Shown here one piece after another: positions 1-29,105 of a DNA stretch of 32,708 nucleotides. How positions within the stretch are numbered: the stretch's first letter is position 1; each line of letters begins with the position of its first letter. The stretch comes from a virus: IMG/VR virus record IMGVR_UViG_3300020187_002853, positions 1 through 32,708 of that record. One strand, written 5' to 3'. The notes beneath the pieces are model-generated. The model saw only the letters and a program-made list of their open reading frames with translations. It did no database searches and was not told where the DNA came from. Position numbers and translations under genes: made by a program.

Positions 1-492
1 TAAGAATTGATCTCCTGGAATTTCTAAACCAGTTGTTGCTGGAACCGTAGGGCCAGATGACCATTCAGTACCTCTAAGACCTTGAGCACCTTGTGAACCT
101 GTAGCTCCTTGAGCGCCTTGAGCTCCTGTGTCTCCTTTATGACCTTTAACACCTTGGTCTCCTTGAGCACCTTGAGGACCTTGAGCTCCTTGAGCACCTG
201 TGTCTCCTTTATGACCTTTAACACCTTGGTCTCCTTGAGCACCTGTGTTACCTTTAGTTCCTTGTGGACCTTGAGCACCTTGAGCTCCCGTATCACCTTT
301 AACGCCTTGTGCACCTTGTGCGCCTTGAGGACCTTGAGCACCCTGTGCTCCCGTATCTCCTTTTGTACCCACCGGCTGGGCTTGTGGTTCGTAACTACCG
401 GTTGTGGAATTCCATACTAGATAATCTCCATTACTGACTCCAGTTACGGAGTTCTTGAGTTCTTCTAGCTGTTTAACTCTGATTCTAGACAT
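1..492 (-). CDS. Collagen-like phage fibre protein, C-terminus cut by left edge
   Basis: The frame stays open to base 1, so only the first 164 codons are present. The start is the ATG at 492-490, preceded by an A-rich leader (TTAAATAAAAAAGATC). Residues 1-40 form a short non-repetitive head (MSRIRVKQLEELKNSV, then a stretch with VWNSTTGSYEPQ, a phrase typical of phage fibre 'peptide linker' segments). Residues about 42-135 are uninterrupted Gly-X-Y triplets dominated by GAQ, GPQ, GDQ, GVK, GHK and GDT, i.e. a charged collagen-like stalk. After that comes a non-repetitive stretch containing WSSGPTVPATTG. Such proteins form trimeric tail or head fibres in phages. It is divergent to the plus-strand gene at 596. 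I cannot tell the virion location. The Gly-X-Y composition (Lys, Asp, Gln) differs sharply from the Ser/Thr/Asn-rich stalk of the fibre at 8055-11921, so it is not a recent duplicate. Confidence 0.85.
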   Translation of the reverse strand, partial: MSRIRVKQLEELKNSVTGVSNGDYLVWNSTTGSYEPQAQPVGTKGDTGAQGAQGPQGAQGAQGVKGDTGAQGAQGPQGTKGNTGAQGDQGVKGHKGDTGAQGAQGPQGAQGDQGVKGHKGDTGAQGAQGATGSQGAQGLRGTEWSSGPTVPATTGLEIPGDQFL

Positions 493-595: not shown

Positions 596-1843
596 ATGGT
601 CGTATCAATCTTAAATATATATCGAAATTATACTGCAAAGTTTATGAGTCGTGAGCGTTCAGCTGCATTTAAAAGGTTAATTCGCAAATATGAGTTCTTA
701 TTAGAGGACTGGGAGGATGTATCTGAGATTAGTAAGAGTGCTAATCTGGAAATGATGCGTGAAATTAATGCGCGCAAACCAAAGAATATTTTAGAGGACG
801 ATTTTACAGTCGAAGAGGAAGAGGATAGGGACAAGGAGAGAGAGGAAGAGACTCCACAAGATATTGTCTTAAAAAAGTTATTTCGTAAAATAGTTTTTAA
901 GAGTCACCCTGACAGGCTAGACAGCGACATCTCAGAGCTTGAAAGAATTAGGTTAGTTTCCTTATACGAACAGGCAGTTAGTGCACACGATGACAAGAAT
1001 TGGGCACTGATGGTAGTTACCGCAATTAAGTTGGATGTAGAGCTACCAGAAGAGGCCGAAGAGATGGTTGACAAGATTGAAGACGAGGCTAAGGAACTGG
1101 AAGAGAAGATTAATAGTACTACTTCTGGAATTGCTTGGCAATTTTACCATGCAGTTGAAGAAGAAAAGGAAAAGATAGTTGAAAATTATTTAGCAATCAT
1201 ATCACGGTCAAAGAAAAAGGCAGCTGAGAAATCGGTAAATAAAAGGTCTAAATTAATTTTAGGAGTTGGACATCCAAGAACTGGGACAGGTTACACTGCT
1301 AAATTACTACAAAGCTGGGGATTAGATGTAGGCCACGAAAAGATGGGAGAACACGGAACAGTAGATTGGAGTTTAGGATCGGGTGAAAAGTCTTTATGGC
1401 AGGATGTTGATTTTAGAGAATGGGAATGGCAACATATAATCTACTGCGTAAGAGATCCTAGAATGAGTATACCATCGATAGTTTATACTGAGAATGTTGG
1501 AAAAGTTTCAGAAACCTTTAGACAAAAGAAAAGCAATTTTTATCATCATGATAATCCAATCGTAAGAGCAATTAACTCTTTATTAGAATGGGATAATTTA
1601 ATAAACAATATGAATCCTAATATCATATATAGGATAGAAAAAGATTCTAAAGATTTATATGAATATTTAAAACAACATACTGATGTTGCTTGGGATGAAT
1701 CTACTATAGGAACAAGATACAATCAAAGAAACCATAAGAATTGGGAAGAAATGGAATCTGAGTTTTTAACAGTTCCTAGAAGATATAAAAATAGATTAAA
1801 TGAATATTGTAAAAGATATGGATATTCTAAGGTATTTGATTAA
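596..1843 (+). CDS. J-domain-like protein fused to a sulfotransferase domain
   Basis: This is the only convincing plus-strand gene in the window. With the start at 596 (415 aa), residues about 19-60 are helical and charged, 65-90 are an acidic linker, and about 92-155 resemble a DnaJ-type J-domain: LFRKIVFKSHPDRL carries the HPD tripeptide at 104-106. A long acidic helix follows. From about residue 219 the protein changes character: KLILGVGHPRTGTGYTAKLL is a good 5'-phosphosulfate-binding loop of PAPS-dependent sulfotransferases, and YCVRDPRMSIPSIV (about 283-296) matches the 3'-phosphate-binding R-D-P-R...S motif. The predicted reaction is sulfate transfer from PAPS to a sugar or Tyr acceptor. 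Base use shifts near 1240: the second half is clearly more AT-rich, like the adjoining sugar genes, which suggests a domain captured onto an older phage gene. The start is uncertain: an in-frame ATG at 644 (MSRERSAAF) is equally plausible, and a TTG at 521 less so. The J-domain assignment is weaker than the sulfotransferase one. Confidence 0.75.
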   Translation: MVVSILNIYRNYTAKFMSRERSAAFKRLIRKYEFLLEDWEDVSEISKSANLEMMREINARKPKNILEDDFTVEEEEDRDKEREEETPQDIVLKKLFRKIVFKSHPDRLDSDISELERIRLVSLYEQAVSAHDDKNWALMVVTAIKLDVELPEEAEEMVDKIEDEAKELEEKINSTTSGIAWQFYHAVEEEKEKIVENYLAIISRSKKKAAEKSVNKRSKLILGVGHPRTGTGYTAKLLQSWGLDVGHEKMGEHGTVDWSLGSGEKSLWQDVDFREWEWQHIIYCVRDPRMSIPSIVYTENVGKVSETFRQKKSNFYHHDNPIVRAINSLLEWDNLINNMNPNIIYRIEKDSKDLYEYLKQHTDVAWDESTIGTRYNQRNHKNWEEMESEFLTVPRRYKNRLNEYCKRYGYSKVFD

Positions 1844-1866
1844 ATTCAACATTTTTATAATTAATA

Positions 1867-2664
1867 TTAAACATCTAGATATTTCATTATTTTTTCATTA
1901 TTCCATGGTGAGACTTCTAAAATACGAGAAGAGTTAAAACTAATTTTATCATTAATGGTTAATTTATTAAAATCAATATTTGAATTTTCAACAACGTACC
2001 CATAATCAATTTTTCTGTCAACTGATAAACAATAGTCTATAAATTTAAAATGTCCACCATACACCTTATCTGAAAATATGATTCTAGAATTAGGTATGCC
2101 ATATGCATCGGCCGCTATTAATCCATGTAGGCTTGAAGATAAAACCATTTCTACGCTGAGTAGATCTTCTAAAAATTCAGTTATTCCAGAGCATATATCT
2201 ATTATTTTAAATCCTTTTTCTTCTAATTGTCTTATTATTGGATTATCTATATCTACATAATGAGGTATGATTCCGACTTTATGTGTTTTTTCTTTAGTTT
2301 TATTCCAAATTAAAGGGAAAAGAAGTGCTGGATCTCCATAAATATCTGGGCATTCTATTCCTTTTAACTTAAATTCATTTCTTGTTAATGGTCCACGAAC
2401 TGCTAGTATTTTATGTGGTTTATTAAATATAGCATTTTGAGTGATGCACCCAGTACCCCATACAACATCATTCTCTTTAATAAATTGACTTACGCTGCCG
2501 ATTGAAACCAATTTTTGTTCAATTTGATTATAGTTTTGATGTACTGTTATTAAATCTTTATTTAAACCCTTTATTTTTAGAAAAGAAGCAATTATAGGAG
2601 ATGCTATTATGTCTCCCCAGTTTTTTTCAAATCCCTGATTTGAATATTGAAATGATCTTATCAT
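1867..2664 (-). CDS. Polysaccharide pyruvyl transferase family protein
   Basis: 265 aa, close to the compact end of the family (CsaB/GumL-like), which transfers pyruvate from phosphoenolpyruvate to a sugar as a ketal. Visible family motifs in order: NWGD (15-18), VWGTG (68-72), VRGPLTR (89-95), GDPALL (110-115), GIIPHY (131-136) and SSSLHGLIAADAYGIP (176-191), the last being the most diagnostic. No signal peptide or membrane segment is evident, so it should act in the cytoplasm on nucleotide- or lipid-linked or protein-linked sugar. It follows the glycosyltransferase at 2668 with a 3-base gap, so they share an operon, and it converges on the sulfotransferase fusion. The gene is strongly AT-rich relative to the structural genes downstream, suggesting acquisition. 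Acceptor unknown. Confidence 0.85.
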   Translation of the reverse strand: MIRSFQYSNQGFEKNWGDIIASPIIASFLKIKGLNKDLITVHQNYNQIEQKLVSIGSVSQFIKENDVVWGTGCITQNAIFNKPHKILAVRGPLTRNEFKLKGIECPDIYGDPALLFPLIWNKTKEKTHKVGIIPHYVDIDNPIIRQLEEKGFKIIDICSGITEFLEDLLSVEMVLSSSLHGLIAADAYGIPNSRIIFSDKVYGGHFKFIDYCLSVDRKIDYGYVVENSNIDFNKLTINDKISFNSSRILEVSPWNNEKIMKYLDV

Positions 2665-2667
2665 AAT

Positions 2668-3402
2668 TTAAATATCGTATTTCGCCCTGTGCCTAACAAT
2701 ATAGGTTGGTTTTTTAATCCATTCTGATTCTCCATATTCATTATAAAGCTGTTCTATAAAATTATAGTCTTCTGCAATTTCCATTCCTTTCCATTTAGCG
2801 TTAACATTAGTTCTATGTCCTAATGCTCCCATACAGTGTTTACCAACTTCCATCTTTATTGGAAATGTTCCAAAATAGGGTTCGCTGTTAGGATATGCTT
2901 CAGGATCTGATCTTAACACAAAGTTATAAATTGCCTTTGAATAATTATAATGTTTTTCTACAGCCTCTCTACCTAAATGATAGTTGATTGCAAAATTGGT
3001 TTCATGTACCCAAATAGAAGTCCAACTTACCCATTTTGCGTTTTTGTTTTCAGAAAAAACATTTATCATTTCTTCAATATGATTAGGAAGCAATAAATCA
3101 TCAGTATCTAGATATGTAATTAAATCAGATTCACATGAATCGATTCCAACTTGCCTTAATTGACCTGGCCACCTTTCTTCCTGTTTTTGCATTCTAATTA
3201 AATTTACTCTATCATTATTAGAGAACATCTTATCATAGACTACGTTTGTGAGTTTACATCCATCGGATATTATCGTCAATACTGAATTTTTGTAGCTTTG
3301 ATTCAAGAAACTGTTTATTGCTGCTATAAATTTAGAGACACTATTTTTTCTTGCACCTGGGTATGGCCACAAGTATGACATCATTATTACATTAACCTTC
3401 AT
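2668..3402 (-). CDS. GT-A fold glycosyltransferase (GT2-like)
   Basis: I place the start at ATG 3402 (MKVNVIMMSYLWPYPGARKN, 244 aa); the longer frame to 3462 adds residues inside the upstream gene and looks spurious. The remaining overlap with the upstream stop is 11 bases. The N-terminus has the usual GT2 opening: a beta strand, then KFIAAINSFLNQSYKNSVLTIISDG (split here as two strands and a helix, residues 24-48). LITYLDTDDLLLPNHIEEM contains the DxD-type metal and nucleotide-sugar site at D99-T-D101-D102. The later WKGMEIAEDYNFIEQL resembles the GT2 acceptor-side ED motif. It likely adds a sugar from a nucleotide-sugar donor in the cytoplasm. It sits between a DUF2827 protein and a pyruvyl transferase, forming a small glycan-building operon. 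Donor and acceptor cannot be read from sequence. Confidence 0.8.
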   Translation of the reverse strand: MKVNVIMMSYLWPYPGARKNSVSKFIAAINSFLNQSYKNSVLTIISDGCKLTNVVYDKMFSNNDRVNLIRMQKQEERWPGQLRQVGIDSCESDLITYLDTDDLLLPNHIEEMINVFSENKNAKWVSWTSIWVHETNFAINYHLGREAVEKHYNYSKAIYNFVLRSDPEAYPNSEPYFGTFPIKMEVGKHCMGALGHRTNVNAKWKGMEIAEDYNFIEQLYNEYGESEWIKKPTYIVRHRAKYDI

Positions 3403-4582
3403 TAAAATAAGTATTTGTTTTCCAATTATAGTTATACGACATTTTATGAGAATTTGGTTCAAATAGATTATCTAACAATTTTTTATATGTTTCTATTAAT
3501 TCTTCATTCTCTTTTGTATATCTATGTAAAACCTTTGAATTTCTTTCTTTATATTCTTCTAGGTTATCGTCATGATTTTTAATTGCCCATTCTATTTGCT
3601 TTGAAGCTTCTTTCATTTTAAACCCTTCGTAATAATATCCTCCATCCTGTATCATTTCAGCATTATGAATCAAAGGATAATTAAAGTATAGTGCATCTAA
3701 GTATGCATAATTAAGAGGATTATCCCATTGGTGTGAAACTACTATATCTGTATTTCCCGCAAGTGCTGCTACTATTGGATATCTTCCCATCCATTTTATC
3801 TTTCCTTGTTTTAATATTTCTAAAGTATTTAATGCGGTTCTAAATCCTTTATTAGAAAACATATTTTTACCAGAACATATTGTTAGGTCTTTAAACTCAA
3901 TGCCCCTTTGAGTCAAGTCTTCACATGCCATAATTATTGGAAATGAAAATTTAACGACATTAAAATTAGGTTCAAAACTAACAATTCTTTTAGATTCACT
4001 ATTATTTTCGTATTCTGCTTTAGGAGAAACTAATGTAGAGTTTTGCATGTCTAAAAACATAGAATCCCATACAAATGGAACTGGAAAGACATTATCTGTT
4101 CTTAATGGAATTGAATAATAGTCATGATTGTGCTTTTGTTGCTGTGGAACATACCATACATTATCTGGCCTAGAATACCAAGAAGGTGCAACTTCTGAAT
4201 CAGATTCACCAAAAATGATTCTTTCCATGTCAATTACATAATTATTACCACATTTATAATCTACAAGTTTACAATTCTTTTTCATTCCTATTTTATAAAG
4301 GTTAGAAATACCATTGACATCATATGTTGTCCCTAACATAATCAAAGCATCAATATCTTTAATTATCCTATTTATTGGTGTAATTGGGATTTCAGAATAC
4401 CTCCAAAACTTTATTTTAGAATGATCTTTTACATTACCTGAAGTATCTACTATTCTAACGTCATACCCTGGTATTTTATTAAGAGCCATGTAAAGCATAG
4501 CTGCGTTCATTTTAATTCCGTTTACCCAAAGACTTTCATCTTCGGATTTTAATCCAATTGTAATTGCAATTACTTTATCCAT
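3392..4582 (-). CDS. DUF2827 glycosyltransferase-like protein
   Basis: I choose ATG 4582 (MDKVIAITIGLKSEDESLW, 396 aa) because DUF2827 proteins begin with this type of segment; a further 16 codons upstream are probably not translated. Family hallmarks visible: ITIGLKSEDESLWVNGIKMN near the N-terminus, a mid-protein VPFVWDSMFLD, SFEPNFNVVKFSFPIIMAC, and the C-terminal half GRYPIVAALAGNTDIVVSHQWDN followed by LNYAYLDALYFNYPLIHNA, which resembles the donor-binding half of GT-B glycosyltransferases. DUF2827 genes are usually found among polysaccharide and glycoprotein glycosylation genes; the enzymatic activity is not established as far as I know. It is first in the three-gene sugar operon and lies directly below a strong terminator, so it probably has its own promoter within 4583-4612. 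Confidence 0.8.
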   Translation of the reverse strand: MDKVIAITIGLKSEDESLWVNGIKMNAAMLYMALNKIPGYDVRIVDTSGNVKDHSKIKFWRYSEIPITPINRIIKDIDALIMLGTTYDVNGISNLYKIGMKKNCKLVDYKCGNNYVIDMERIIFGESDSEVAPSWYSRPDNVWYVPQQQKHNHDYYSIPLRTDNVFPVPFVWDSMFLDMQNSTLVSPKAEYENNSESKRIVSFEPNFNVVKFSFPIIMACEDLTQRGIEFKDLTICSGKNMFSNKGFRTALNTLEILKQGKIKWMGRYPIVAALAGNTDIVVSHQWDNPLNYAYLDALYFNYPLIHNAEMIQDGGYYYEGFKMKEASKQIEWAIKNHDDNLEEYKERNSKVLHRYTKENEELIETYKKLLDNLFEPNSHKMSYNYNWKTNTYFNEG

Positions 4583-4612: not shown

Positions 4613-4640
4613 AAAAAAAGAGGGGACCAATGGTCCCCTC
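4613..4640 (-). terminator. Rho-independent terminator after the coiled-coil fibre gene
   Basis: A perfect 9-bp stem GAGGGGACC / GGTCCCCTC (4620-4640) with a 3-base loop is followed on the minus strand by a run of seven T (4613-4619). It lies 25 bases after the stop of the fibre gene at 4666-5979 and separates it from the sugar operon. Confidence 0.92.
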
Positions 4641-4665
4641 TAATAGATTAAATCTTAAATAAAGA

Positions 4666-5979
4666 TTATGCTCTCACGTACTCAACGAAAACTGAATCCT
4701 GTGGATCTAGATCGTAAGGAAGTCTAATGTCAACAGACTGTCCTGAAGATACATTATATCCAAACTGTCCAGGAGTAGCGATACCTGCGTTAGGTTCTAG
4801 GACAAGACCATTTACAGAAACTTTAACAACGTTACCGTTTACTGCGTCTTCAATAAAACCAGCAAGTGTAAGTGTTAAGATGTTATCTGCTAGAGTCGGT
4901 GCAGCTGTGAATGATTCGATTCCGAATGGATCCTTAACAAATGCAGCTTCGATAGAAGTGATGTCAGCTTCAAGAGCAGCTGCTCTTACTTCTAGAGAAT
5001 CAACTGAGTTCTCAACTGCAGTCATCTCTGCGTCAGTAGCTGCAGATGCAGTTTGTGTCTGTAGAGCGTTAACTGAAGCTTCTAGAGAATCAACTGAATT
5101 TTCTAGTGCAGTAATGTCGCTATCAAGTGCTACAGTACCTAGAACTGTGTCGATAGAACCGATTGAATCTTCTAAAGAATCAATAGAGTTATTGATACCT
5201 GAAAGTGCAGTGGTAGTGTTACCTTCGAAAGTTTCAAGATCACCAACTCTTGCTTCTAGAGAATCAACTGAGTTCTCAACTGCAGTCATCTCTGCGTCAG
5301 TAGCTGCAGATGCAGTTTGTGTCTGTAGAGCGTTAACTGAAGCTTCTAGAGAATCGATTGAGTTCTCAACTACAGTCATATCGCTATCAAGTGCTAGAGT
5401 ACCTAGAACTGTGTCGATAGAACCTACTGAATCTTCTAGAGAATCGATTGAGTTCTCAACTGCAGTCATCTCTGCGTCAGTAGCTGCAGATGCAGTCTGA
5501 GTTTGTAGAGCGTTAACTGAAGCTTCTAGAGAATCAACTGAATTTTCTAGTGCAGTAATGTCGCTATCAAGTGCTACAGTACCTAGAACTGTGTCGATAG
5601 AACCTACTTCTAAAGAATCAATAGAGTTATTGATACCTGAAAGTGCAGTGGTAGTGTTACCTTCGAAAGTTTCAAGATCACCAACTCTTGCTTCTAGAGA
5701 ATCAATAGAGTTCTCAACTGCAGTCATCTCTGCGTCAGTAGCTGCAGATGCAGTCTGAGTTTGTAGAGCGTTAACTGAAGCTTCTAGAGAATCGATTGAG
5801 TTCTCAACTGCAGTCATCTCTGCGTCAGTAGCTGCAGATGCAGTCTGAGTTTGCAGCGCGTTAACTGAAGCTTCTAAAGAATCAACTGAATTTTCTAATG
5901 CAGATAGATCAGCTGCTTCTAGTTTTGCTGATAACTGATTTGATAAATCGTCAACCTGTTTGATTTTAATTAATGCCAT
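4666..5979 (-). CDS. Repetitive coiled-coil phage fibre protein
   Basis: I choose ATG 5979 (MALIKIKQVDDLSNQLSAKL, 437 aa); the 28 codons upstream in frame overlap an AT-rich leader (CTAAAAATAAACATATATAC) and look non-coding. Residues about 10-345 are heptad-like repeats built from ALENSVDSLEASVNALQ, TQTASAATDAEMTAVENS, RVGDLETFEGNTTTALSGIN and GSIDTVLGTVALDSDI, predicted long trimeric or dimeric coiled coil. The last about 90 residues are a globular cap containing VVKVSVNGLVLEPN and LPYDLDPQDSVFVEYVRA, a pattern shared with the end of the protein at 6117-7997. This architecture fits a tail or baseplate fibre shaft with a terminal domain. The repeats are nearly identical at DNA level (see the repeat entry). 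It is flanked by terminators on both sides, so it is its own transcription unit. Adjacent to a glycan-modifying operon, which may act on this or neighbouring fibres (inference). Confidence 0.82.
   Translation of the reverse strand: MALIKIKQVDDLSNQLSAKLEAADLSALENSVDSLEASVNALQTQTASAATDAEMTAVENSIDSLEASVNALQTQTASAATDAEMTAVENSIDSLEARVGDLETFEGNTTTALSGINNSIDSLEVGSIDTVLGTVALDSDITALENSVDSLEASVNALQTQTASAATDAEMTAVENSIDSLEDSVGSIDTVLGTLALDSDMTVVENSIDSLEASVNALQTQTASAATDAEMTAVENSVDSLEARVGDLETFEGNTTTALSGINNSIDSLEDSIGSIDTVLGTVALDSDITALENSVDSLEASVNALQTQTASAATDAEMTAVENSVDSLEVRAAALEADITSIEAAFVKDPFGIESFTAAPTLADNILTLTLAGFIEDAVNGNVVKVSVNGLVLEPNAGIATPGQFGYNVSSGQSVDIRLPYDLDPQDSVFVEYVRA
4990..5900 (-). repeat. Intragenic near-identical repeats with a 444-bp higher-order duplication
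   Basis: A block of about 90 bases encoding the ENS-VDSLE ... TASAATDAEMTAVENS segment recurs five times (near 5000, 5262, 5442, 5700 and 5795) with few changes. In addition a larger unit is duplicated: the stretch from about 5084 to 5260 recurs at about 5526 to 5698, offset 444 bases, with one 6-base in-frame difference just after GATAGAACC (5152-5160 versus 5596-5604). Confidence 0.85.
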
Positions 5980-6116: not shown

Positions 6117-7997
6117 TTATACATCATTACTCGATGCATCATAAATCACATCGACATCATCAGTTGGATCTAATTCATAGTTTGCAATAGAACCCATCCA
6201 ATATAGTTGATCACCTGCTGCGATGTCTGCAATTGCTCTTGCAGTAGTACCTCCATCAGCTGAGAAGTAACAAGGCTGGTTTTTAGCACCATCGCCTACA
6301 TTTACATTTAGACCATTAACTAGAACCTGTACATTTGAATCGCTAAATGGAGTATATGTAATGAATACACCAGTTGCATCTTCATCTGCCGTTGTAGTTA
6401 ATGGAGTTTGGTTTAGATCGCTTGCTGTCTCAACTCCAGTTTCAGCAGAACCAGCAGCTTCGATTAATAATAGATATGGAACTCTACCTGATTGAGAAGA
6501 AACTGCTCCATTTGAATTTATCCATCCACCTGTAATCGGAGAACCTGTGATTTCAATAGGACCACCTGAATCTCTAGTAAGAGTTAATACTGGAGAACCT
6601 ACAGTTGCGGAAGTTCCAATACCTGTCCATGATGCTGCTCCAAATGCTGGAGTACCGAATAGACCGTTAACTGTATTTGTAATTGTAATTCCAGTTGCGG
6701 CTCCAGTTGTTGTAATTCTAACACTTTGACCATCGTATGCAGTCATCGTAAATAACTCAGTTGTTAAATCTAAAGAACCTGCAGTAATTGCTGCATCTAA
6801 TTTAGTTTTAATATCAGTTGGAGTAACAACATCGTAAGTATCTGCACCTACAACCATTGTGTCCGATGGGTTATCGAATACAACAGCTACTGCTGATTGA
6901 ACTCCATCTGTAATTGTGATTTCTGGGTAGGTTGGAGTTTGTCCAACTATTCCAGTTGCAATGTACGAATCAGTTGCGCTGTAAAAATCGTTTGATTCGT
7001 AGTTTGGTGCAAAGTCTCCACCTTCAACGATAACAGGAGTTGCTCCTGAACTCGCAGATACATTAGAAGTAGAGGTGAATGTATTAATAAGAGTTTTGAA
7101 TGCGTCAATATCGACAACACTGTCACCACCTGGACCATCAAATACAGTTATTCCATTAAGAATAACTACATCAGTCGCTCCTGGGATAGCAGTACCTACA
7201 ATTTGAGAAGATGTAATCTTTTCGTTTAAGTGTAGATATGTCTCCTTTCCTCCAATTGTTGTTGTGATTTCTCCTGGATTTAGTTGATCAGTATAATATA
7301 CATTAGATGGAGAACCTGTTAAAGATTCAGGATCTTTGTAATTTCTAATGATATCATTAAACGGCTTTACAAATACGTCTTTACCAGATCTAATAATATC
7401 AACAACAGTACCTACCTTAAGGTCTGCACCTCCTGCTGTTCCATATTTTACAAGATCTCCACTTGCGTTAATTGTAACAACATCACCTTTTTCGATTAAA
7501 GGAGCCACACTATGCTCAAACTTTATTCTATCGTCATTCTCATTAACACTAAATCTACTTTGGATTTTATCAATTGCACCTGCTGTAAAACCTGAAGCTT
7601 CGGTAATAATAGCCTCTCCTTCAGTGTTTTGTTCAAATACAACAACGCTTGCTCCACTAGTGATAGAGTTGATTGAATTTAATCTATAAGACATCATATC
7701 TACATCTTCAGCAACTAATGAAATATTAGTTTCTGTTTTTGAAGAGATAGATTTAATTCTTAGAACTGATTCTCCAGCAGAATCAGAGATCCACATCCCA
7801 ACTGAAATATCAATAGCATTATACTCATTTGATTTTCTTGTTGATGCGTCTCCAGTTGATTTAGGAGTTATAGCAACAGTCATTTCATACGTCTTGTACT
7901 GACTAGCCATTCCGGTTCCGTCATTCTCATTGTATGTCAATTGACCTGAAATACTACTTATAGTACCGTTAAGTGTGATTGGTGTGATTGTAGACAT
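6117..7997 (-). CDS. Putative phage structural protein (beta-rich)
   Basis: 626 aa, rich in Thr, Ser, Gly, Val and Ile with no signal peptide, membrane segment or enzymatic motif; the overall pattern is of an elongated beta-sandwich virion protein. The N-terminal about 130 residues (MSTITPITLNGTISSISGQL onward) include alternating strands; VAPLIEKGDVVTINASGDLV and LKVGTVVDIIRSGKDVFVKP (about 165-215) resemble the small beta-barrel modules of decoration or spike proteins. The C-terminus has VQVLVNGLNVNVGDG and then YELDPTDDVDVIYDASSNDV, parallel to the end of the fibre at 4666-5979 (VNGL ... LDP.D.V.V.Y). It lies between two fibre genes and is flanked by hairpin terminators, so it is expressed separately and probably strongly. 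Precise role (baseplate, tail spike, head fibre) is unknown. Confidence 0.7.
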   Translation of the reverse strand: MSTITPITLNGTISSISGQLTYNENDGTGMASQYKTYEMTVAITPKSTGDASTRKSNEYNAIDISVGMWISDSAGESVLRIKSISSKTETNISLVAEDVDMMSYRLNSINSITSGASVVVFEQNTEGEAIITEASGFTAGAIDKIQSRFSVNENDDRIKFEHSVAPLIEKGDVVTINASGDLVKYGTAGGADLKVGTVVDIIRSGKDVFVKPFNDIIRNYKDPESLTGSPSNVYYTDQLNPGEITTTIGGKETYLHLNEKITSSQIVGTAIPGATDVVILNGITVFDGPGGDSVVDIDAFKTLINTFTSTSNVSASSGATPVIVEGGDFAPNYESNDFYSATDSYIATGIVGQTPTYPEITITDGVQSAVAVVFDNPSDTMVVGADTYDVVTPTDIKTKLDAAITAGSLDLTTELFTMTAYDGQSVRITTTGAATGITITNTVNGLFGTPAFGAASWTGIGTSATVGSPVLTLTRDSGGPIEITGSPITGGWINSNGAVSSQSGRVPYLLLIEAAGSAETGVETASDLNQTPLTTTADEDATGVFITYTPFSDSNVQVLVNGLNVNVGDGAKNQPCYFSADGGTTARAIADIAAGDQLYWMGSIANYELDPTDDVDVIYDASSNDV

Positions 7998-19851: not shown

Positions 19852-19957
19852 CTAAAAATGTGCAATACTTTTTACTGGCTTATTATCCTTATACAGGACA
19901 AGTGTTCTTTTACCATTAATTGTGGTATCTAACGCGATTCTCTCGCCATATTTAAAC
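19852..19957 (-). pseudogene. Orphan coding-like frame downstream of GH16 without a start
   Basis: Immediately after the GH16 stop, another frame reads about 34 codons, beginning FKYGERIALDTTINGKRT and ending KPVKSIAHF before TAG at 19854-19852. Composition is protein-like, but an in-frame TAA lies only three codons upstream and there is no ATG. It could be the tail of a lost small gene, or a C-terminal extension of the GH16 protein separated by a one-base frameshift. It lies between GH16 and the terminator, so it is transcribed. Confidence 0.3.
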
Positions 19958-20863
19958 TGCGGTTACATTATTTTTCTGCAATACTCTAAAAGATTTTACC
20001 AGGACTGCACTTTCGCGTGGTATATCCTTTTCTAAATCAGCATAATGGTAATATCCATGATTGAGAATTACAAATTGATTTGAATTTTCAGCATTATACC
20101 ATTTTAGTATTTCAGGGTCAGTACATTTGAATACTCTAATACCATCATAATATATTTCTATTCTGTCCTCTTCCCAAAGACACGCATATTGAACATATCT
20201 TTCAGTACAATCTGCTACGGAAACACTATAAGATCCGTACATTGTTTTAGACCCTTCATTAACGTTACCATAATGTAGGTTAGGCTGTATCTTTTTATTT
20301 TGGGTTAATTTACCAAATATGTTCTTTTTAGAATAGACATCACCTTCATCACTATATGCCTCGAATATATCGATTTCAGGAGGCCAAGTCTCAGCTCCAC
20401 TTAACCAAAATGCTGCCCAATATGGAGTTCCTTTTGGTAATTTAATCTCAGCCTCAAACCATCCATATTTCCAGCTCTGTTTAGTTGAAACCATACCAAC
20501 CCCTACTGGAATTGTAAATTCTTCAGGTAAATGATCCTTCTGTCTCCAAAGAGGCAACTCACTTTTCTTATAGGTCTTTGGAATATTGCGTAATTCTAAT
20601 GCCAATCCTTCGGTTGATACGTATGCAAGATCTCCTTTACCATAATATTGGCATAGTACATCGGCATGGAAATCGCCCCAAGGCTGCCCATATCTCCATT
20701 CTTGTAGATTAAGTGGGTTATCGAAGTTGTCTTCAAAAACTAGTTTATAGTCAGATGGTGGAGTGAATATTCTATCCCCTCCATTATAAACGTTAGACCA
20801 AAGGTTAGCCTTAATTCTTGATTTTAGATTTGAGATTGTGTCCTTTAAACTGTGTTTAATCAT
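19952..20863 (-). CDS. GH16-family endo-beta-glucanase/galactanase-like hydrolase
   Basis: 303 aa. The catalytic signature ExDxxE is EIDIFE (Glu163, Asp165, Glu168) in WPPEIDIFEAYS; upstream KYGWFEAEIKLPKGTPYWAAFW (split at 132-153) is the typical laminarinase/carrageenase strand. Glu163 is the expected nucleophile and Glu168 the acid/base. The family cuts internal beta-1,3/1,4 bonds in laminarin, agar, carrageenan and related polysaccharides, many of which are marine algal or bacterial surface glycans. No signal peptide is visible: the N-terminus (MIKHSLKDTISNLKSRIKAN) is basic and helical, so it may act in the cytoplasm, be released at lysis, or be attached to the virion as a depolymerase. 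Its ATG overlaps the stop of the 58-aa membrane or secreted protein (ATGA), implying co-translation. The substrate cannot be told from these motifs. Confidence 0.88.
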   Translation of the reverse strand: MIKHSLKDTISNLKSRIKANLWSNVYNGGDRIFTPPSDYKLVFEDNFDNPLNLQEWRYGQPWGDFHADVLCQYYGKGDLAYVSTEGLALELRNIPKTYKKSELPLWRQKDHLPEEFTIPVGVGMVSTKQSWKYGWFEAEIKLPKGTPYWAAFWLSGAETWPPEIDIFEAYSDEGDVYSKKNIFGKLTQNKKIQPNLHYGNVNEGSKTMYGSYSVSVADCTERYVQYACLWEEDRIEIYYDGIRVFKCTDPEILKWYNAENSNQFVILNHGYYHYADLEKDIPRESAVLVKSFRVLQKNNVTAV

Positions 20864-23525: not shown

Positions 23526-24089
23526 CTATAATACATTTTGTTTCAGAGTTTCAGAATAAATTAGGTCTTTCCAAAGATTAATTGCAATTGCTTTACGGGT
23601 ACCTTTGGTAACTACATCGACCCGGTGTAACACATCTCCTGCGTTAAATATAACTAATCGATTTGGTTTTGCATAGATTCTTTCAGGTTCACTGTCAACT
23701 CCATTTGTATAAATTTCAAGCATTCCACCTTCAAATTCTGCCTGTTCAGGATAATATATTGTTCCAATCAAAGGATTCTTAGTTTCCCCTGTATTATCCC
23801 ATAAATCTTCGTCGCGATCAGCATGTAGTATTAGATTATTATTGTACCTCATATCTTCAGCACTCTGGATTCCTGTCCAATATTCAAATCCACTAATATC
23901 AAATGATTCTCTAATTGGACAATTATCTCTCCAAATATATTGAATCAACTTTTGTTCAGCTGTATTTGCTTCAGTGTTCCACCAGCCGTTATACCATTTA
24001 TATTCCCCAGGAGTAGATAGCAATTGCATATCCGCTACTTCTCTTTTTAGCATTTCATCTTTAATGAAATTGTCAATTACTACTATCAT
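23526..24089 (-). CDS. 2-oxoglutarate/Fe(II) oxygenase-like protein
   Basis: 187 aa, near the size of small phage prolyl-4-hydroxylase-like oxygenases. Iron facial triad His89-x-Asp91 (LILHADRDED) and His155 (GDVLHRVDVV); Arg165 in TKGTRKAIAINLW binds 2-oxoglutarate. TIYYPEQAEFEGGMLEIYTN and PNRLVIFNAGDVLH are the characteristic strands of the double-stranded beta helix. Substrate unknown: could hydroxylate a protein, nucleobase or small molecule. Its ATG overlaps the stop of the cREC gene (ATGA), which itself overlaps the candidate DNA-base enzyme at 24490, so all three are translationally coupled and may act in one process. Confidence 0.85.
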   Translation of the reverse strand: MIVVIDNFIKDEMLKREVADMQLLSTPGEYKWYNGWWNTEANTAEQKLIQYIWRDNCPIRESFDISGFEYWTGIQSAEDMRYNNNLILHADRDEDLWDNTGETKNPLIGTIYYPEQAEFEGGMLEIYTNGVDSEPERIYAKPNRLVIFNAGDVLHRVDVVTKGTRKAIAINLWKDLIYSETLKQNVL

Positions 24090-28190: not shown

Positions 28191-29105
28191 CTACTTGATT
28201 ATAAGAATCTTTTCGGTTGTACCATTGCTATATCTAATTAAATATAGTCTATTGCCCGGCAGCATTTCTATATCTTCTTGAATATAGCGACCTTGCCAGT
28301 CCCATATTCCGATCACTTCTTTTTCTTTCTGATTCTCTTCAATATTAAGCGTAGAATTACGAACAATAAAAGTCCATTGAATTCTCTGAGTAGACATCAA
28401 GTAACTATTTCGGTATTTGTCAATCTGAAAACCATATCCATGAGAACCTAGATTTGTACCAACAAATGTGATTGAATCGTTACCTGCTAATACATTAGTT
28501 GAAGTCTGTACTTGAGGTACAAAAACACCGTTAGAATACGATGAGTAAATTTCAGTCATTGTTAAGTTAACTGAGTCTCCTGGATTAGGATTTGTAAAGT
28601 GACAATTGTAGTTTCCCCATACAGGTTTCATTGAATTAACTGAGTTCTTCTCTACATTAATCCAAAGTGGTTGCTCACCAAATGCCGTAGAATTATTCGG
28701 AACATGCCAGTAATCTGTTGAGATAACAAAGTCTGATTGTATTGAGTTTGTTGAATTCACCAACATCGGCCAGCAGCAATTTGTGTAAATGAATCTATAT
28801 TGACCTGAATCAAGATCTAAATAATCGCTACCGTAATTTGCAGTGTTAAATCCTTGATGTGTTCCTGTATTAAACTTAGTTAGTGTAACATTACCATCAT
28901 ATTGGTACCAACCTTGAGAGTCTTTAACCCATTTCTGTACTGAAACAGATTGTGGCATTGTTGGAAATGCATCTGAAACAACATACATTCCAATAGATGT
29001 AGAATCTTGACTAGTTTGTGCAACTTGAATAATTCCACCAAGAATATGTGAAGCACTGAGGTTAACCGTAACTAATAGCGCTAAGAGTGCTAATAACTTT
29101 TTCAT
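28191..29105 (-). CDS. Secreted protein with T9SS type A-like C-terminal sorting domain
   Basis: 304 aa. Residues 1-18 (MKKLLALLALLVTVNLSA) are a clean Sec signal peptide. After cleavage comes SHILGGIIQVAQ, like the beginning of the 'ASHIVGG' extracellular domain of many Bacteroidota surface proteins, with a Cys pair in FIYTNCCWPM. The last about 45 residues (VIGIWDWQGRYIQEDIEM, then LPGNRLYLIRYSNGTTEKIL) match the T9SS type A tail pattern: a D/W-x-x-GR turn, a glycine, an aromatic-rich strand and a Lys-rich end. It should cross the inner membrane by Sec and the outer membrane by the host type IX system, then be anchored on the cell surface. Function is unknown; superinfection immunity or alteration of host surface are guesses. 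No enzymatic motif. Confidence 0.82.
   Translation of the reverse strand: MKKLLALLALLVTVNLSASHILGGIIQVAQTSQDSTSIGMYVVSDAFPTMPQSVSVQKWVKDSQGWYQYDGNVTLTKFNTGTHQGFNTANYGSDYLDLDSGQYRFIYTNCCWPMLVNSTNSIQSDFVISTDYWHVPNNSTAFGEQPLWINVEKNSVNSMKPVWGNYNCHFTNPNPGDSVNLTMTEIYSSYSNGVFVPQVQTSTNVLAGNDSITFVGTNLGSHGYGFQIDKYRNSYLMSTQRIQWTFIVRNSTLNIEENQKEKEVIGIWDWQGRYIQEDIEMLPGNRLYLIRYSNGTTEKILIIK

Follow-up and report, generated by a model that had tools for sequence, protein, structure and literature searches.

A DUF2827-centred gene module in the fibre slot of a marine tailed phage and its sister phages probably decorates the phage's own fibre

In bacteria, soluble cytoplasmic glycosyltransferases (GTs) such as NGT of Actinobacillus pleuropneumoniae and SdgB, which acts on SD repeats, modify adhesins before these are displayed on the surface. 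Virion glycosylation is known in mycobacteriophages, as described in accounts that refer to the original work (Freeman et al., 2023, cited in PMC12619734 and PMC11256854), and the GT genes in the host-recognition cluster of pelagimyophages have been interpreted as modifying the host O-chain (PMC7029224). The locus described here lies in a fragment of a tailed phage, marine and described as large, which makes up the entire IMG/VR record IMGVR_UViG_3300020187_002853 (32,708 bp; hereafter the window). Genes for a sulfotransferase (ST), a pyruvyltransferase-family protein, a GT2 enzyme and a DUF2827 protein stand between its fibre genes, and the structure that their products decorate is probably the fibre of the phage itself and not the surface of the host. 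The gene list and its location had been given in a preliminary description made from the letters of the sequence, and both were found to be correct by Pfam and, for the ST, by fold. DUF2827 is the core of this fibre-slot module.

The DUF2827 gene (3392..4582, minus strand) encodes a protein matching PF10933 over the full profile (1-362) with 277.8 bits against a cut-off of 25 (E = 1.5e-82). Its AlphaFold2 model (mean predicted local distance difference test score, pLDDT, 82; predicted template-modelling score, pTM, 0.84) matched GT-B enzymes of family GT4, with BshA at Z 23.1 over 324 residues and a Foldseek E value of 5e-10, and the protein O-GlcNAc transferase SdgB was also among the fold matches (Z 19.3). 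These matches suggest that DUF2827 is a GT-B glycosyltransferase of the GT4-like type. T4 alpha-glucosyltransferase (AGT) was among the matches too, as would be expected if DUF2827 glucosylated phage DNA in the manner of that enzyme; however, the GT-B fold is common to many families, phage copies of DUF2827 are linked to fibre genes, and cellular copies are linked to adhesins, not DNA. DNA glucosylation is very improbable because of this tie to adhesins. No published function for DUF2827 was found in the literature searched, the coverage of which was incomplete.

Sister phages were found by profile scans of viral contigs. Their slot showed a recurrent order, namely fibres, a J-domain/ST fusion gene on the opposite strand, a glycan cassette of varying content with DUF2827 as its last gene, a fibre with an MAxIxxKQ start, and a fibre of roughly 626-650 amino acids. 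DUF2827 was present in every one of the 14 phage contigs whose slot could be read (12 records plus contigs L073 and L074), while the other slot genes varied, and phages with an empty slot, sought as a control, were not found among them. L073 and L074 are filed under Kapaibacterium and Bifidobacterium breve assemblies, and look like misbinned phage DNA carrying the module. A coiled-coil repeat fibre was adjacent to DUF2827 or at most two genes away in 14/14 of these contigs; in L023 two GT2 genes separate the pair, and the DUF2827 copies of L064 and L074 are interrupted. In L018 and L020, DUF2827 is the sole glycan gene of the slot and is followed by a stand-alone J-domain protein. The corresponding fibre of the window (4666..5979, minus strand) matches coiled-coil families, starts with MALIKIKQ, contains SVDSLE repeats and, as the conserved neighbour of DUF2827, is the proposed acceptor.

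A DUF2827 profile scan of 84,980 species genomes gave 79 loci, mostly from Burkholderiales and Neisseriaceae, plus Acidithiobacillus and the two misbinned phage contigs named above. Most of the neighbourhoods that were read contained two to four DUF2827 genes directly adjoining a trimeric autotransporter adhesin, the surroundings being ordinary apart from that. In 24 whole genomes, a selection made by eye among the 77 cellular loci, the nearest YadA anchor was within 1.5 kb of DUF2827 in 18 (0.08 expected) and within 8 kb in 21 (0.4 expected), the expected counts being computed from anchor numbers and genome sizes. As these genomes were hand-chosen and are related, the counts indicate a strong association and not independent events. 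A cruder in-house test found an adhesin signature in the flank of 60 of the 77 cellular loci. Three of the 24 genomes had no anchor within 8 kb: in G015 DUF2827 lies where a very long adhesin gene starts, 11 kb from its anchor, in G014 the contig carrying DUF2827 has no YadA anchor, and in G028 no adhesin is nearby. Coiled-coil repeats of the form (S/G)LS(T/S/A) were enriched in DUF2827-adjacent adhesins compared with the remaining adhesins of these genomes (p = 0.0013), and overall Ser+Thr content did not differ significantly between the two groups (p = 0.18). Of the eight DUF2827-adjacent sequences, two had gaps or were out of frame.

Phages and bacteria have in common that DUF2827 lies beside a trimeric coiled-coil fibre, which makes the fibre the acceptor with the best support. 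The preliminary description, seeing no flippase or polymerase, had taken a cytoplasmic protein such as the phage fibre for the simplest acceptor; the choice of the fibre and the lack of a flippase are both supported. Profiles of the Bac_transf, WecA and Wzx types had no match in the window and 12 other phage records, several of which are fragments, and the GtrA-type flippase of gtr serotype-conversion systems (PF04138) was likewise unmatched there. The cassette proteins contain no hydrophobic segments of the membrane-protein type. A soluble GT that can stand alone, the lack of lipid-carrier family matches and the lack of a typical transmembrane segment together make a cytoplasmic fibre the simplest acceptor. 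The conserved pairing of DUF2827 and this type of fibre across 14 phage contigs, the bacterial adhesin neighbours, the two slots in which it is the sole glycan gene and the fusion of a J-domain to the ST all support this choice.

Surface polysaccharides often carry pyruvyl and sulfate caps, and the glycan cassettes of L003 and L004 are big enough for building a glycan; both points favour the alternative that the enzymes remodel a host surface polysaccharide (O-chain or capsule) and thereby block superinfection. This is the published interpretation of similar fibre-adjacent GT genes, those of the pelagimyophage host-recognition cluster (PMC7029224), and it keeps some weight, since initiation and flipping could be provided by enzymes of the host. 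However, no initiating transferase, flippase or GtrA-type protein was matched in the window and 12 other phage records, some slots have no glycan gene besides DUF2827, and bacterial DUF2827 genes adjoin adhesins in mostly housekeeping surroundings rather than polysaccharide clusters. A J-domain fusion would also be hard to explain with a polysaccharide acceptor. Taking both sides into account, we consider remodelling of the host surface unlikely.

The product of the ST gene (644..1843, plus strand) is 399 amino acids long and consists of a J-domain module (644..1243, residues 1-200), which had gone unnoticed, and an ST domain (1244..1843, residues 201-399). The start had been placed at 596, and alignment to 399-amino-acid relatives moved it to the ATG at 644. 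In its model (pLDDT 91, pTM 0.58), residues 199-399 matched sulfotransferases, which led the fold comparison; the best match was TPST2 (3ap3; Z 11.9 over 175 residues at 4.1 A), followed by TPST1 (Z 11.7), the CurM ST domain (Z 11.0) and SULTs (about 9-10). The domain scored below the Pfam sulfotransferase cut-offs (Sulfotransfer_3, 14.2 bits versus 27), and a profile search against PDB sequences returned no sulfotransferase. As the sequence searches stayed below the Pfam and PDB thresholds, the ST call rests on fold, motifs and context. An alignment of the family (A6) showed invariant R12, G14, T15 and R70 and a near-invariant S78, which correspond to an invariant PRTGTG-type 5'-phosphosulfate loop and a 3'-phosphate R...S pair eight residues apart; their spacing was compared with that of sulfotransferases using 3'-phosphoadenosine 5'-phosphosulfate (PAPS). 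PAPS is made by adenosine 5'-phosphosulfate (APS) kinase, and a gene for this enzyme (PF01583, 2.4e-23) overlaps an ST relative in the viral contig L061 (9526-10495); the L027 phage also encodes an APS kinase. The second half of the 644..1843 product is thus a predicted PAPS-type sulfotransferase-like domain.

For the first half, membership of the J-domain family is indicated by the group profile and not by the copy in the window, which is under the Pfam DnaJ cut-off (14 bits versus 27.8). All 10 members of the J module matched DnaJ at E ≤ 0.1 (best 1.8e-5), each alone weakly, the module profile matched Sec63 (4e-5) and DnaJB9 in the PDB (range 4-5e-5), and the HPD tripeptide was invariant in 10/10. 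In eight contigs the module in this slot is part of an ST fusion, and in four it is a gene of its own. A candidate split J-domain gene adjoining the ST in phage C48C1 was rejected, as the upstream gene had no significant similarity to the module.

The solved structures nearest in fold to the ST domain are protein-tyrosine sulfotransferases, so the ST could sulfate the fibre polypeptide itself. This gives a second alternative, in which the J-domain ST is a protein (tyrosine) sulfotransferase working on the fibre apart from the glycan of the other enzymes; the top matches TPST2 and TPST1 and a J-domain that suggests a polypeptide client are in its favour. The TPST matches are statistically tied with the next, such as the CurM ST domain, however, and the fibre has just three tyrosines. 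ST-only relatives in other marine phages (L039, L040, L046, L029, L036 and L052) lie, as judged by eye, near GT32/GT25-type glycosyltransferase-like genes or near FkbM-like and 2-oxoglutarate (2OG) oxygenase-like genes, which suggests a glycan. Tyrosine sulfation is improbable, to much the same degree as an action on the host surface.

The pyruvyltransferase-family gene (1867..2664, minus strand) matched PF04230 with 43.1 bits (cut-off 25.3; E = 6.3e-11). Relatives with 49% identity are found in glycan cassettes of other phages, and only the window has the gene in this slot, the L026 phage carrying a PF04230 gene elsewhere. The GT2 (GT-A) gene (2668..3402, minus strand) matched PF00535, Glycos_transf_2, with 37.4 bits (cut-off 23.3; E = 3.3e-9), and GT2 genes of the same subfamily are frequent, standing in the same slot in several sister phages. 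A search of PHROGs gave only weak GT matches for GT2 and nothing useful for the other cassette proteins.

We propose, with a probability of about 0.6, that the module modifies the phage's own fibre. While the trimeric coiled-coil fibre is still cytoplasmic, DUF2827, as a soluble GT-B enzyme, would put the first sugar on its Ser/Thr-containing repeats, GT2 would extend the glycan so started, the ST and the pyruvyltransferase-family enzyme would add acidic caps, and the J-domain, via host Hsp70, would recruit the ST to the fibre as it folds. The acceptor residue, the order of transfer, the cap substrates and the role of the J-domain are inferred, and sulfate and pyruvate may come to stand on one fibre glycan. 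The broader proposal that DUF2827 is a hitherto unrecognised cytoplasmic GT family dedicated to the trimeric coiled-coil fibres of bacterial adhesins and phage tails, with a J-domain-tethered ST finishing the decoration during folding, is held more tentatively, at slightly worse than even odds.

Several points weigh against modification of the fibre, which we infer from the genes. Phage fibres contain just 17-30% Ser+Thr and lack the SLST repeats of the bacterial adhesins. An intrinsic terminator (4619..4641, minus strand; a hairpin-plus-T element with a similar one at the same place in sister phages) stands between DUF2827 and the fibre gene, so that the two are not simply one transcript. In Hydromonas (G028), DUF2827 is accompanied by other glycan genes, and no adhesin anchor lies close to it. 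The bacterial genomes, mostly Burkholderiales, are not independent, several of the phage relatives are fragments, and initiation or flipping could come from host enzymes.

The cassette had been described as AT-rich and inserted. Its overall GC is indeed lower (0.28-0.32 for the ST, pyruvyltransferase, GT2 and DUF2827 genes versus 0.377 ± 0.035 in other genes), but GC at third codon positions (GC3) is 0.16-0.25 in the four enzyme genes and matches that of the neighbouring fibres (0.16-0.22). The low GC thus arises mainly from amino-acid content and gives no sign of recent insertion; an insert of foreign DNA was rejected on GC3 and the conserved synteny of the slot. Synteny gave no evidence that the FkbM and inositol-phosphate synthase genes, which lie far away, belong with the cassette, and the late-promoter motif TATAAATA was not enriched within the window (93 observed versus 81 expected).

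The slot is flanked by a 626-amino-acid fibre protein of the same cluster (6117..7997, minus strand), conserved in sister phages, and by the N-terminal part of a collagen-like fibre (1..492, minus strand; PF01391, 1.6e-18), truncated at the contig end. The window, with its collagen-like fibre, also encodes a 187-amino-acid protein (23526-24089) with weak NCBIfam likeness to Fe2+-dependent dioxygenases (2.8e-4, below cut-off). Sister phage L002 carries, beside collagen-like fibres, a GT25 domain followed in one frame by an OGFOD2-like, oxygenase-like region (1-1272; PF25238 0.0011, below cut-off) and a separate 2OG-Fe(II) oxygenase (2295-2873), genes reminiscent of collagen lysyl hydroxylase/glycosyltransferases. 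Elsewhere in the window are a GH16 glycoside hydrolase (19952-20863; PF00722, 8.5e-14) and a secreted-looking protein (28191-29105) without an NCBIfam match, whose C-terminus resembles, by eye, a type IX secretion tail and hints at a Bacteroidota host.

The fibre role of DUF2827 and the J-domain/ST fusion appear to be new; in the literature searched, again with incomplete coverage, nothing combining a sulfotransferase with a phage tail fibre was found. The proposal gives DUF2827 a testable function and would connect the way phages modify their fibres with the modification of adhesins in Burkholderia, Variovorax, the bee symbiont Snodgrassella and other bacteria. It also suggests that GT genes lying among phage fibres, which are commonly read as acting on the host surface, could serve to coat the virion, with consequences for adsorption and phage recognition.

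Compared with known systems, TPST1 and TPST2 are the closest solved folds to the phage ST domain, a predicted sulfotransferase with about 15% identity to them, and we know of no J-domain fusion for TPSTs. The pelagimyophage cluster likewise has GT genes among the tail-fibre genes of marine myophages, whereas sulfotransferase and pyruvyl functions go unmentioned in the main text of that report (PMC7029224). In the mycobacteriophages, as far as the citing accounts describe them, phage-encoded GTs decorate virion structural proteins, as is proposed for the window; the mycobacteriophage targets are capsid and tail-tube subunits, whereas a coiled-coil fibre, with DUF2827 and acidic-cap enzymes, is proposed here. 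Finally, DUF2827 is not of the same family as NGT of A. pleuropneumoniae (PMC5303269) or SdgB (PDB 7vfl) but forms an uncharacterised one, whose ties are to trimeric autotransporters and phage fibres.
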